From contig NZ_QPJY01000004.1 in assembly GCF_003337735.1 (NCBI RefSeq), positions 207,089-249,878 of the forward strand: a stretch of DNA of 42,790 nt, given 5' to 3'. Below, one piece after another: positions 9,601-13,686 of the stretch. Position numbers and translations under genes: made by a program. The stretch's first letter is position 1. Every line of letters starts with the position of its first letter. Below the pieces are notes generated by a model that saw nothing but the letters and a program-made list of their open reading frames with translations, did no database searches and was not told where the DNA came from. The DNA is from Thioalbus denitrificans (GTDB taxonomy: Bacteria; Pseudomonadota; Gammaproteobacteria; DSM-26407).

Positions 9601-10336
9601 CGGCGTCTGCGCGGCGCCGCAGCAGGAGTTCACCACCGAGGAGGTGGCGCTGCTGGAGGAACTCGCCAACGACCTCGCCTTCGGCATCCGCAGCCACCGC
9701 ACCTCAGACGAACGCGACCGCGCCCGCGAAGCGCTGGGGAAGGTGCTGTTCCAGACCATCGAGGCCATCTCCCGCACCGTGGAGATCCGCGATCCCTACA
9801 CCGCCGGCCACCAGCGCCGGGTGGCCCTGCTGGCCGAGGCCATCGCCCGCGAGTTGGGCTGGAGCGAGGATCGCATCGAGGGGCTGCGCCTCGGCGCCAT
9901 CATCCACGACATCGGCAAGATCTACGTGCCGGCCGAGATTCTCAACCGCCCGGGCCGCCTGACACCGCAGGAGTTCGGCATCATCCAGCAGCATCCCCAG
10001 GTGGGCCACGACATCGTACGGGGCATCTCCTTCCCGTGGCCGGTGGCGGAGATGATCCTGCAGCACCACGAGCGCCTCGACGGCAGCGGCTACCCCAACG
10101 GCCTGGCCGGGGACGCCATCGTGGAGGAGGCCCGCATCCTGGCGGTGGCCGACGTGGTGGAGGCTATCAGCGCCCACCGGCCCTACCGCCCCGCGCTGGG
10201 TCCGGAGAAGGCGCTGGCGGAGATCCGCAGCGGTCGCGGCGGGCGCTACGACGCCGACATCGTGGACACCTGCGTGCGGCTGTTCGAGGAGGCCCGCTTC
10301 CAGTGGCCCGACGAGACGGGGCCGGGGAGTTACTGA
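6641..10336 (+). CDS. CHASE-PAS-GAF-HD-GYP c-di-GMP phosphodiesterase
   Basis: A 1231-residue membrane sensor. Two membrane segments (about 22-41 and 324-345) enclose a periplasmic CHASE-like domain. The cytoplasmic part has three PAS domains (starting near 375, 496 and 618), then two GAF-like regions (about 750-870 and 880-1015). The HD-GYP output domain runs from about 1033 to 1215. The catalytic signature is intact: HDIGK near 1088, HHE near 1142 and LDGSGYP just after. No GGDEF or EAL domain is present, so the predicted output is c-di-GMP hydrolysis only. The gene is transcribed alone, 213 bp after nnrS, and its 3' end overlaps the convergent eIF2B-like gene by 7 bp. The input signal is unknown; several PAS domains suggest redox or gas sensing (inference). 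Confidence 0.92.
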   Translation: MAGTPNRIAADGKAGRAALRQRLPVLLLALLGTLLTLGAYLQAHRQMAHLESAELERRAAEYATEIQHTLDMNLEILEGVGALFDASREVSRTEFEAYGRYALAHHGELQALEWAPRVPAAYRANYETAARAEGLEKFRIVERAPDGGLQPAGDRSEYFPVFYRFPDADAESPYGLDLGSDPRQRPVIEQARERGGTVAAVPRHAVGTARDGRLLIVLPVYRTSRSGQELDGPLTSTPPYGFLVAIIRIREMIDAALRLFPADELNLRLDDSGHGNEMPASLYVNGTDYLPGADDLRFDIELPGSSWVLSIAPGPAFGAGHYHQWPLLLLVFGLVFTFSFTAYLDTMRRRSATLGAMNRALAESRDRIEQAHREWVEAFDAVPDPIFVHDSEGRLVRANRAYAEAAGLPFKEMLGRPYWEVFPRGDGPFPGCSLHDEYSEEPYEMTLAGRHYAARSFRLHNGEIRPRSGIHILQDITARRSAQQEMLEAHRRAQRYLDVVNVMILALDPEGHITLINRRGCEILGYPEEELIGCDWVEQCIPEPQREEVRALFQQHLDSMPVEHAEGPVLTRDGQVRFISWHNTLLHDQAGRPIGTLSSGQDVTGQRAAEAALRTSEERLSLMLEGTEDGLWDWDLVNDSVYFSPRWKAIIGYAVAEIGNSADEWQRRIHPKDRETTLAEVERVLQGDAERIDLEFRMRHRDGHDVWIQSRGRVFRDSTGRPVRMVGAHTDITARREFQIREHALLEALRERVKEIDCLYQVTRLATDTEQPLEQVLQRIADTLPGGWQYPDKAAARVRLGESNLTSRDYRPTEWTLRAPIPLPDPPDGEVELCYLEPLPEADHGPFLDEEMALIESVGVQLGQLIAQRRHAESLHRLNRTLRTLSQSNTALVRAGSEVELNQSLCDVMARQGGYPLVWVAHRGDRPAAGMQIRAVAGTLSTWEELLSCAGAINTGASADLALSTGNGDSSCVVLPLLEAGHVFGVLGVCAAPQQEFTTEEVALLEELANDLAFGIRSHRTSDERDRAREALGKVLFQTIEAISRTVEIRDPYTAGHQRRVALLAEAIARELGWSEDRIEGLRLGAIIHDIGKIYVPAEILNRPGRLTPQEFGIIQQHPQVGHDIVRGISFPWPVAEMILQHHERLDGSGYPNGLAGDAIVEEARILAVADVVEAISAHRPYRPALGPEKALAEIRSGRGGRYDADIVDTCVRLFEEARFQWPDETGPGSY

Positions 10337-11220
10337 TGGCAGCCTGTCGCGCCGGCACGGGGTCCCCGTTCCACGCCCGCCTCGGTGATCCAGGCGCTCA
10401 CCAGGCGGGCCGGCGTCACCTCGAAGTAGGGATTCATCACCCGTACGCCGGGCAGCTCCGGCGCACCCAGCTCGGCCGGATCCATCTCCTCCAGTTCGGG
10501 CCCCTCCGATGAGGGCGACAGGCGCTTGAAGCTCTCGCAGCAGACATAGAAGGGGATGCCGTTGTCCCGGGCAGTCAGCGCCAACAGGTAGGTACCGGTC
10601 TTGTTCACCACTGCGCCATCGGCCGTCAGGGCGTCGGCGCCCACCAGTATCGCATCGGCACCGGCCGCGTAACGGCCCAGCGCCGCGTCGGTGACCAGCG
10701 TGGTGGGTATGTGCCATGCCGAGAGAGCGGCGGCCAGGCGGTGACCCTCGTTCAGGGGACGCGATTCGGCCACGATGGCCCGCACTCCCGCCTCCCGCAG
10801 CTTTTCGAATACCGCGGCCACGGTCGAGCTCAGGCTCAGGGTGGCGATGGTGCATCCCGCCCCGAGGCGGGTGGCGGCATGTCCGGCGGCCCTGTCCACC
10901 GCCCGTTTCGACTCCGCCGCCACGGACTCCGCGGCCCCGGCCGCGGTGGCGCGGGCCTCGGCGAGGGGTAGATGCCCACAACGGGCCAGTTCGCCCTTCC
11001 AGCGCCCGAGCAGGTTGTACAGCGGCGCCATGCTCGGCCGGGTGGCGACGAGGAAATCCGCGGCCGCGCACAAGTCCGCCACCAGTGTCGCCGGGTCCGG
11101 AGCGGCGGTGCGACGGGCCAGTTCGGAGAGGAACTCCAGGGACTGCCGGGCCAGTTCACTGGCGCCGTGGAGGCGATCCGCCGCGAGCCGGGCGCGGAAT
11201 TCGGCGACGGGATCAGCCAC
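10330..11220 (-). CDS. eIF2B-alpha / R15P-isomerase-like protein
   Basis: A 296-residue member of the eIF2B-alpha/MtnA/ribose-1,5-bisphosphate isomerase superfamily. A helical N-terminal half is followed by the Rossmann-like half: AESRPLNEG near 151, GADALTADGAVVNKTGT at 194-210, then VMNPYFEVTPA. The conserved Asp of the isomerases is kept (D196). By manual alignment, the catalytic Cys of R15P isomerase and MtnA is replaced by Ser129 (IATLSLSS), so isomerase activity is doubtful. A regulatory or sugar-phosphate/nucleotide-binding role is possible. It overlaps the upstream Nudix gene by 8 bp and probably shares its transcript. The 3' end overlaps the convergent HD-GYP gene. Substrate unknown. 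Confidence 0.82.
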   Translation of the reverse strand: MADPVAEFRARLAADRLHGASELARQSLEFLSELARRTAAPDPATLVADLCAAADFLVATRPSMAPLYNLLGRWKGELARCGHLPLAEARATAAGAAESVAAESKRAVDRAAGHAATRLGAGCTIATLSLSSTVAAVFEKLREAGVRAIVAESRPLNEGHRLAAALSAWHIPTTLVTDAALGRYAAGADAILVGADALTADGAVVNKTGTYLLALTARDNGIPFYVCCESFKRLSPSSEGPELEEMDPAELGAPELPGVRVMNPYFEVTPARLVSAWITEAGVERGPRAGATGCHQ

Positions 11221-11650
11221 CCGCCGCCTCCCGTTCCAGGCAGGCGGCCAGGGCCTCGGCCAGGGCCGGCACGGTGGCGTATTCGCCGAGGTCCGCTGGC
11301 CGGACCCAGCGCAACTCCAGGTTCTCCCAGTCCAGCCTCACCGCGTCGGGATCGTCCACCTCGAACAGGAAGGGATGCACCACCCAGCAACGCCCCACTG
11401 CCGCATCCTCGATTTCCAGCGGGGGCGCGGCGCTCACCAGGCGCGGGACGGCAGACGGGATCCCCGTCTCCTCCTCCACCTCGCGCCGGGCCTGATCCAG
11501 GGGGTCGGCATCCTCCAGGTAGCCGCTGATCCCCGACCAGAGCCCCTGGTAGGTGCCGACCCGCCCGCTGCGCCTGACCAGCAGCACCCTGTCACCGTGA
11601 CGCAGGAAGGCGGTCACGACGTGGCGCCGCTCGGGGGAGCCGGCAGCCAC
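11213..11650 (-). CDS. Nudix hydrolase
   Basis: A 145-residue Nudix-fold protein. The Nudix box is at about residues 43-64 (GYLED...ARREVEEETGI); its REVEEETG core is intact, while the leading Gly-Glu part is one residue short of the canonical spacing. The start is the GTG at 11650, 6 bp after the upstream HPF-like stop, with no strong ribosome site; coupling to the upstream gene is likely. Its 3' end overlaps the eIF2B-like gene by 8 bp. The substrate cannot be read from sequence; nucleotide-sugar or dinucleoside-type diphosphates are typical of the family. Tight linkage to the eIF2B-like gene suggests a shared metabolite. Confidence 0.88.
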   Translation of the reverse strand: MAAGSPERRHVVTAFLRHGDRVLLVRRSGRVGTYQGLWSGISGYLEDADPLDQARREVEEETGIPSAVPRLVSAAPPLEIEDAAVGRCWVVHPFLFEVDDPDAVRLDWENLELRWVRPADLGEYATVPALAEALAACLEREAAGG

Positions 11651-11656
11651 CCCGCC

Positions 11657-12226
11657 CTACCCGACCACGTGGTGCTTGCCGGCCACGCGCACCGTGCTGG
11701 CCTGGGGCCCCTGCTCCCCCTGCTCCTCGTGGAAGAACACCTCGGTGCCCACCGCGAGCTGCTCGAAGCTGCCGTCGAGCACGCTGTTGCGGTGGAAGTA
11801 GATCACCCGTCCGTCGGGCGTCTCGATCTTGCCGTAATCCTCCGTCGGCAAAAGTCCGAGGACGCGGCCGTAGGCCGGTTCCTCGTGCGCCTTGACGAAG
11901 CCGCGCGACTTGCGCACGCGGTCTTCCAGTTGCCGCTGGAGCGCGGCGAAGGCATCGCGCAGCGCCACGTAGACATCCTCGTGGGAGCGGTCATCGTGGT
12001 GACGTCCACCGCTGACCACCAGCTCCCCCTCGGGGACGGTGGCATCGATGCGCACGTGGAAGCGCTTGCCCTTGTGGTGACGGCCGTGAGGTGATTCCAC
12101 CACCACGCGGCAACTCATGATGTCGCCGAAGAAGCGCTCGAGCTTTTCCGCCTTTTCCTGGATGCGTGCCTCCACGGCGGGCGAGGGTTCCATGTCGCGG
12201 AAGGTGATCTGCAAGGGCAGTTTCAT
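11657..12226 (-). CDS. HPF/RaiA-like domain fused to cold-shock domain
   Basis: A 189-residue two-domain protein. Residues 1 to about 110 are the ribosome-hibernation (sigma-54 modulation/RaiA) fold: LQITFRDME at the start, VVVESPHGRHHKGK, VRIDATVP and a helix with DAFAALQRQLEDRVR. Residues about 120-185 are a cold-shock-like OB fold (YGKIETPDGRVIYFHRNSV and VGTEVFFHEE). Both parts bind ribosome or RNA, so a role in stress-time ribosome inactivation is likely. It is the first gene of an operon with the Nudix and eIF2B-like genes, with only 6 bp before the next start. The 5' region upstream of it is occupied by the palindromic element at 12279-12436. Confidence 0.9.
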   Translation of the reverse strand: MKLPLQITFRDMEPSPAVEARIQEKAEKLERFFGDIMSCRVVVESPHGRHHKGKRFHVRIDATVPEGELVVSGGRHHDDRSHEDVYVALRDAFAALQRQLEDRVRKSRGFVKAHEEPAYGRVLGLLPTEDYGKIETPDGRVIYFHRNSVLDGSFEQLAVGTEVFFHEEQGEQGPQASTVRVAGKHHVVG

Positions 12227-12437: not shown

Positions 12438-12836
12438 CTAGAGGGTCGGCCGCCCGGGCTGGGCGTGGGTACGCTCATACTCGGCCTGGCAGTCCACGCA
12501 GCGCTCGGCCGTTGGATAGGCCTGCAGACGCTCGTGGCCGATATCCGTCTGGCACTCCCGGCAGATACCGTAGAGATCCTGGGCCATGCGCCCCAGGGCG
12601 GTCTCCAGTGCCCGGATCTCGTGCACATGGCGATCGATGTCGGCCAGCGTGACATCCACCAGCAGGTCGGCCAGGGACTGGTCCTCCAGGTCGTGCACCT
12701 GCCCGGCCAGTTCCCCGTAGTGCTCCTCGTCCGCGCGCAGGAGAATTTCGCGCACCTCGGCACGCTTGTCCTCCAGGCGCGTCCGGATTTGCTGCTTGAG
12801 GCTCTTGAGCTGGGGGGCGGTGAGTCGTTCTGCCAT
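12438..12836 (-). CDS. DksA/TraR-type zinc-finger protein
   Basis: A 132-residue DksA-like protein. A helical N-terminal region suited to a coiled coil (about 8-85) is followed by a four-Cys zinc finger: C92-x2-C95-x17-C113-x2-C116. DksA-family proteins bind the RNA polymerase secondary channel. This one is shorter than DksA and nearer the YbiI/TraR-like DksA homologues, so it may act on a subset of promoters. The start at 12836 has an AGGAGC ribosome site 6 nt upstream; longer in-frame extensions lack one. The stop is immediately followed by the palindromic element, which may serve as the transcript end. Confidence 0.85.
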   Translation of the reverse strand: MAERLTAPQLKSLKQQIRTRLEDKRAEVREILLRADEEHYGELAGQVHDLEDQSLADLLVDVTLADIDRHVHEIRALETALGRMAQDLYGICRECQTDIGHERLQAYPTAERCVDCQAEYERTHAQPGRPTL

Positions 12837-12990
12837 GACCTGCTCCTGCTGCCGGATGGATGTCCGGGTGGCTGGCCCGGCTCTGTGGCGGGGTGGGCCA
12901 TTGCACCCGCCCTCACTCCTATTATGGTCCGGGTTTCGTCTCCCTGCAGTGCCGGCGCCCGACGGACGCCGCCCGCGCCCCGGGGCGCCG

Positions 12991-13686
12991 TCACAGCCCG
13001 TCGAGGTAGCCGGGGCCGAGTTGCCGCATCTGGGCCAGGATCCAGGCCTGGCGTTCGCGCTCCACGGCACCGGGGGCGCTCACCGAGCGCTGCAGCGGGT
13101 TGGGAAGCACCGCCGCCAGCAGCGCCGCCTGCGCCTCGTCGAGCCGGGACGGCTCCACGCCCAGGAAGCGCCGGCTGGCCGCCCCCACGCCGAAGGTGAG
13201 GGGGCCGAGCTCCGCCACGTTCACATACATCTCCAGGATCCGGCGCTTGCCCCAGGCCAGCTCGATGAGGACCGTGTAGTAGGCCTCCAGGGCCTTGCGC
13301 AGCCAGCTCCTGCCCGGCCACAGGAAGACGTTCTTCGCCACCTGCTGGGACAGGGTGCTGGCGCCCCGCAGCCGCCCGCCGCGAGCGGCATCCTCCACCG
13401 CGTCGGCGATGGAATCCAGGTCGAAGCCGAAATGCACGGGGAATTTCTGGTCCTCGGCGGCCACCACCGCGAGCAGGAAGCGGGGCGACACCTCCGCGAG
13501 GTCCACCCACCGGTAGTGGAGCCGCGCGCCGGACGGCGCCTCGAACCAGCGCTGGATCATCAACAGGGTCAGCGGCGGGTCTGCGAAGCGCCATAGCGCC
13601 ACCGGCAGCAGGCTCAGGAGCAGCAGGGCCAGGAGCAGGCGCAGGATCAGTCGGCGCAGCCGGTTTGCTTTGCTTTTACGGCGCAT
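12991..13686 (-). CDS. mtgA: Monofunctional peptidoglycan transglycosylase
   Basis: GT51 enzyme that polymerises lipid II into glycan strands at the outer face of the inner membrane. The 231-residue protein has one N-terminal membrane segment (about 12-33). The catalytic motif AAEDQKFPVHFGFD puts Glu78 as general base. The second motif GASTLSQQVAKNVFLWPGRSW follows, then ELAWGKRRILEMYVN. There is no transpeptidase domain. The ATG at 13686 gives the usual family length; a longer frame would need a TTG start. It is divergent from tetR, with 119 bp between them. Confidence 0.94.
   Translation of the reverse strand: MRRKSKANRLRRLILRLLLALLLLSLLPVALWRFADPPLTLLMIQRWFEAPSGARLHYRWVDLAEVSPRFLLAVVAAEDQKFPVHFGFDLDSIADAVEDAARGGRLRGASTLSQQVAKNVFLWPGRSWLRKALEAYYTVLIELAWGKRRILEMYVNVAELGPLTFGVGAASRRFLGVEPSRLDEAQAALLAAVLPNPLQRSVSAPGAVERERQAWILAQMRQLGPGYLDGL

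Follow-up and report, generated by a model that had tools for sequence, protein, structure and literature searches.

What does a protein with the fold of the sugar-phosphate isomerases do in a bacterium when it has lost the catalytic Cys and is encoded next to a Nudix hydrolase and a ribosome hibernation factor? The regulatory core of eIF2B has its origin in the sugar-phosphate isomerase family, and we know of no role for the Cys-less branch of this family outside eukaryotes. Besides, bacteria have, to our knowledge, no aIF2. We address this question for a locus of Thioalbus denitrificans, contained in the stretch of 42,790 nucleotides analyzed here (the window). A sequence-only reading of this locus had proposed a metabolite-binding regulator linked to translation arrest, with the Nudix protein making or removing its ligand.

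Gene organization of the locus

Three genes on the minus strand make up the locus. They encode an HPF-cold-shock-domain (HPF-CSD) protein of 189 aa (11657..12226; Pfam Ribosomal_S30AE, 67 bits, and CSD, 30 bits), a Nudix hydrolase of 145 aa with a GTG start (11213..11650; Pfam NUDIX, 53 bits, and subfamily alignment) and an aIF2Bα-like (PF01008) protein of 296 aa, also with a GTG start (10330..11220), which was identified by Pfam (IF-2B, 180 bits), alignment, predicted fold and tree. The gap between the HPF-CSD and Nudix genes is 6 nt, and the Nudix and eIF2B-like genes overlap by 8 nt, in agreement with the earlier description of three genes that overlap or nearly touch. The second IF-2B gene of this genome is a true MtnA with Cys (L001). 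A DksA/TraR-type zinc-finger protein (12441-13070, minus strand) is encoded immediately upstream of HPF-CSD. A defence system was considered and rejected, as PADLOC produced only weak hits, to a Nudix and a CSD profile.

The HPF-CSD protein, with an S30AE domain followed by a CSD, belongs to the HPFcold class. It resembles CBU_0020 of Coxiella, likewise a two-domain protein of HPF and CSD of about 20 kDa (PMC13392368), from which no family-level difference was found; the gene neighborhood alone is special to the genus. In the Coxiella ribosome, HPFcold occupies the tRNA cleft of the 30S subunit, and its CSD rests on the anti-Shine-Dalgarno sequence (PMC13392368).

Loss of the catalytic cysteine in the eIF2B-like protein

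The eIF2B-like protein carries Ser129 (codon 10834..10836, minus strand) where the isomerases have their catalytic Cys, and it keeps the catalytic-site Asp196 (codon 10633..10635, minus strand). These residues align with Cys135 and Asp204 of the Pyrococcus R15P isomerase PH0208, whose motif THCHSK is TLSLSS in the window protein. The sequence-only reading had made both assignments, and they are borne out: alignment to R15P isomerase, MtnA and eIF2Bα places Ser, not Cys, at the catalytic position, and a superposition of folds was run as well. For the AlphaFold model (mean pLDDT 94.7), the best superposition was with the ligand-bound R15P isomerase (Z 34.7, 286 residues, 2.0 Å), and comparison of the model with PH0440 (1vb5) gave a Z of 32.8 at 34% identity. 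The window protein shares with the R15P isomerases PH0208 and TK0185 the fold, the sugar and 5-phosphate residues and the catalytic Asp, but differs from them in having Ser for Cys and changes at the Arg22 and Gln166 positions, and with 148 bits it scores far below the curated cut-off of 314 bits for TIGR00511 (R15P isomerase). It has the fold and the PF01008 domain of MtnA but lacks the Cys, falls on a separate branch and scores 98 bits against a curated cut-off of 279 bits for TIGR00512 (MtnA).

PH0208 binds the 1-phosphate through Arg22, Arg65, Gln166 and Lys215, the 5-phosphate through Ser137, Lys240 and the backbone, and the sugar through Asp204, Asn214 and Lys215; its C135S variant is inactive, yet binds R15P like the wild type (PMC5789824). 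The window protein has His18 and Glu158 in place of Arg22 and Gln166; Arg61 and Lys207, 1-phosphate ligands in R15P isomerase, are still present. R15P isomerase activity is unlikely, judging from these residues, because Arg22 and Gln166 are changed while the other ligands, Arg61 and Lys207 included, are kept. The same pattern suggests that the ligand is probably a sugar 5-phosphate or a 5'-nucleotide without a 1-phosphate.

A Cys-less clade with its own pocket signature

Relatives of the window protein were gathered from its own class, two other bacterial phyla, the Thermoplasmatota and a genome collection, and scoring of the pocket residues split them cleanly into the window clade on one side and MtnA and the R15P isomerases on the other. 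The MtnA and R15P isomerase rows share Cys, Gln (Gln166 of PH0208), Arg (Arg22) and Ala, which are replaced in the window clade by Ser, Glu, a variable residue and Met, respectively; the clade retains Asp196, Asn206, Lys207, Ser131 and Lys232 (except for L156 and L157, with Gly for Lys207). The Ser was found in every scored member of the clade bar L039, a fragment with Gly, and the Glu in all members but L156 and L157, which have Tyr.

The archaeal PH0440 falls in the same clade, with Ser at the Cys position (THSxSS), Glu for Gln, Met, and the Asp, Asn and Lys kept, so that the window protein shares its Ser/Glu/Met signature; the two proteins differ in that PH0440 has Asn where the window protein has Arg61. 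The Ser clade forms one side of a branch with an SH-aLRT of 99 when the four signature columns and the longest rows are left out, and of 80 with all rows and columns; these are quick trees of a clade first chosen by its residues, and thus lend support rather than proof. As far as the aligned residues tell, the Ser/Glu pocket is the mark of the whole clade, archaeal aIF2Bα included, and sets it apart from MtnA and R15P isomerase. The Ser had previously been treated as a local loss, a view that has to be revised accordingly.

The Nudix hydrolase as a lasting partner

The Nudix subfamily scores over the cut-off of PF00293 and is invariant at E57, E60 and E61, the metal-binding glutamates of the Nudix helix (E-x2-E-E); it also features RRS..V.TY.G.W and HPFLF. 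Among 369 gammaproteobacterial genomes, this subfamily occurs in 9, the eIF2B-like clade in 11 (our own tally, with MtnA-type hits left out) and both in 6 (Fisher p = 1e-8, or 6e-6 when the own genus is left out). The two genes are close together in all six genomes that have both, one of the pairs being some 600 nt apart.

The order of the Nudix and eIF2B-like genes, unlike that of the HPF-CSD gene, is kept outside the genus in several phyla. Within the Desulfobacterota, the two proteins are fused in Desulfuromonas (L062), fused behind a Cys-rich N-terminus in L094 and L095, and encoded by neighboring genes in L096 and L097. Adjacent pairs are found in the Chloroflexota as well (L145, L146, L148-L157), overlapping or touching in at least nine genomes; of the Chloroflexota genomes that carry both genes, about half have them at separate places, and in one Anaerolineae genome the two share a strand but are some 5 kb apart, separated by a segment that contains a transposase. 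Both genes are present but unlinked in the Thermoplasmatota, and clade members of family f155, Marinobacter and Pseudomonadales have no such Nudix gene nearby. A further archaeal case, comparable to the Desulfuromonas fusion by annotation alone, is the 43-kDa HVO_1934 of Haloferax, annotated as a NUDIX family hydrolase/eIF-2B domain protein (PMC8576121).

That they are fused or overlapping in several phyla suggests that the Nudix and eIF2B-like proteins work together. The Nudix hydrolase is a lasting partner of the eIF2B-like protein, from which a ligand or substrate shared between them can fairly be inferred.

An all-against-all comparison of 35 neighborhoods yielded no third partner that recurs across distant lineages. 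GloB (hydroxyacylglutathione hydrolase) was rejected as such a partner, as it recurs in f155 and Desulfuromonas only, and SDR genes look like chance. In f155, the eIF2B-like genes without Nudix (L045, L048, L049) lie near GloB and a MetY-like PLP enzyme of Cys/Met metabolism; in Desulfuromonas, GloB is found near the fusion (L062 3233-3988). The Cys-rich N-termini of L094 and L095, of about 95-135 aa and without a Pfam match, are possibly metal-binding. Another Nudix-eIF2B fusion of the Desulfobacterota (L099 1465-2400) is apparently decayed or truncated, with the central eIF2B part missing.

Proposed function and alternatives

The products of Nudix enzymes are nucleoside monophosphates or phosphorylated sugars. 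We tentatively propose that the Nudix and aIF2Bα-like proteins form a two-part metabolic module for a nucleotide or sugar phosphate, a reading that is plausible though short of probable and the likeliest of those weighed here. The Nudix protein would cleave a nucleotide-type substrate, and the aIF2Bα-like protein would accept the product, a 5-phosphorylated ribose or nucleotide, in a pocket of the isomerase type from which the Cys and part of the hold on the 1-phosphate are gone. The module builds on the observed gene pair, its overlap and fusion, the clade, its residue changes and the fold; in addition, both parts would have to act on the same molecule, the ligand would carry a 5-phosphate and no 1-phosphate, and the eIF2B-like part would still perform some, presumably changed, chemistry rather than only bind. 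We favor this reading because Nudix products fit and the contacts to ribose and 5-phosphate are preserved in the pocket of the partner. Counting against it are the unlinked genes in about half of the Chloroflexota genomes with both and in the Thermoplasmatota, some clade members without such a Nudix gene nearby, the retention of Arg61 and Lys207, and the loss of Lys207 and Glu158 in two members of Chloroflexota pairs.

Next in rank, and possible though clearly less likely, is a pure ligand sensor, in which the eIF2B-like protein would switch the Nudix enzyme and have no chemistry of its own. Such a role would fit a kept pocket that has lost its Cys and is fused to Nudix, and human eIF2Bα offers a precedent, as it binds F6P in the same pocket (PMC8187479), with Ala at the Cys place and Glu at the Asp place in our alignment. 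The human protein thus resembles the window protein in the fold, the lost Cys and the sugar-phosphate pocket, but differs in both catalytic places, in using Arg132 as a phosphate ligand and in being a subunit of the eIF2B decamer. On the other hand, the strict conservation of Asp196 across phyla, which human eIF2Bα does not share, hints at retained chemistry, and the Nudix protein is the only output partner found for a sensor.

We consider it improbable that the pair serves the house-cleaning of damaged nucleotides, with the eIF2B-like part binding or processing a damaged 5'-monophosphate. In the gammaproteobacterial family f78, MutY and a YggX-like gene directly follow a Nudix gene of the same subfamily (L090-L092; genomes G078, G306 and G204), and NudG, NudI and MutT types are among the closest Nudix structures solved. 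However, the MutY/YggX context is limited to this one family, none of whose sampled genomes yielded a member of the eIF2B-like clade, and the Nudix fold neighbors are too mixed to fix a substrate. Matches of the Nudix search to ubiquitin chains in the PDB were discarded as repeat artefacts.

Slightly less probable still is the view of the sequence-only reading, in which a protein that binds a metabolite would regulate ribosome hibernation from an operon shared with HPF. The 6-nt spacing to the HPF-CSD gene is kept in a sister genome, and eIF2B relatives act in translation. Nevertheless, the HPF-CSD gene is a neighbor of the pair in this genus alone (in two genomes, with eIF2B-like proteins 90% identical) and is unlinked to it in every other pair-bearing genome checked; it lies elsewhere in the genome in G284, G342 and G160, and no full-length match was found in f155. 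In addition, the Haloferax fusion is dispensable, as growth showed no phenotype when HVO_1934 was deleted, whether singly or together with HVO_2706 (PMC3828320), and no more than one or two contacts link the fusion to initiation factors (PMC8576121). The translation-arrest part of the earlier reading is weak because the hibernation factor is linked only in this genus, and we rejected it as the main reading; its metabolite-binding and Nudix part stands up better, given the missing Cys, the largely kept pocket and the lasting Nudix partner. Finally, an ordinary R15P or MTR1P isomerase using Ser is very unlikely despite 30% identity to R15P isomerase and the same fold, as C135S inactivates PH0208 (PMC5789824), two 1-phosphate ligands are changed and the own genome has its normal, Cys-bearing MtnA.

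Implications for the Cys-less branch

Each part of the locus is of a known kind. In the literature searched, which covers part of the journals, we found no description of the bacterial Nudix/eIF2B-like unit and its pocket signature. The unit may represent an unrecognized enzyme activity or metabolite switch common to bacteria and archaea, in which a Nudix enzyme and then a changed R15P-isomerase fold would act on one nucleotide or sugar phosphate, with the pocket chemistry of the Cys-less branch, to which eukaryotic eIF2Bα is closest; we regard this as a possibility, though a rather doubtful one. With its fixed Nudix partner and a setting free of eIF2 and aIF2, a bacterial member would provide a clean system for finding the ligand or reaction of the Cys-less branch.

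No plasmid-borne homologues of the window eIF2B-like protein were found at E 1e-20, and a plasmid search with the fusion as the query returned only MtnA-type genes and one divergent haloarchaeal protein. In this eIF2B-like protein (L083 1965-2816), Glu takes the place of the Cys and Asn that of the Asp, and its gene is flanked by an aldo/keto reductase and an alpha-amylase-family gene.
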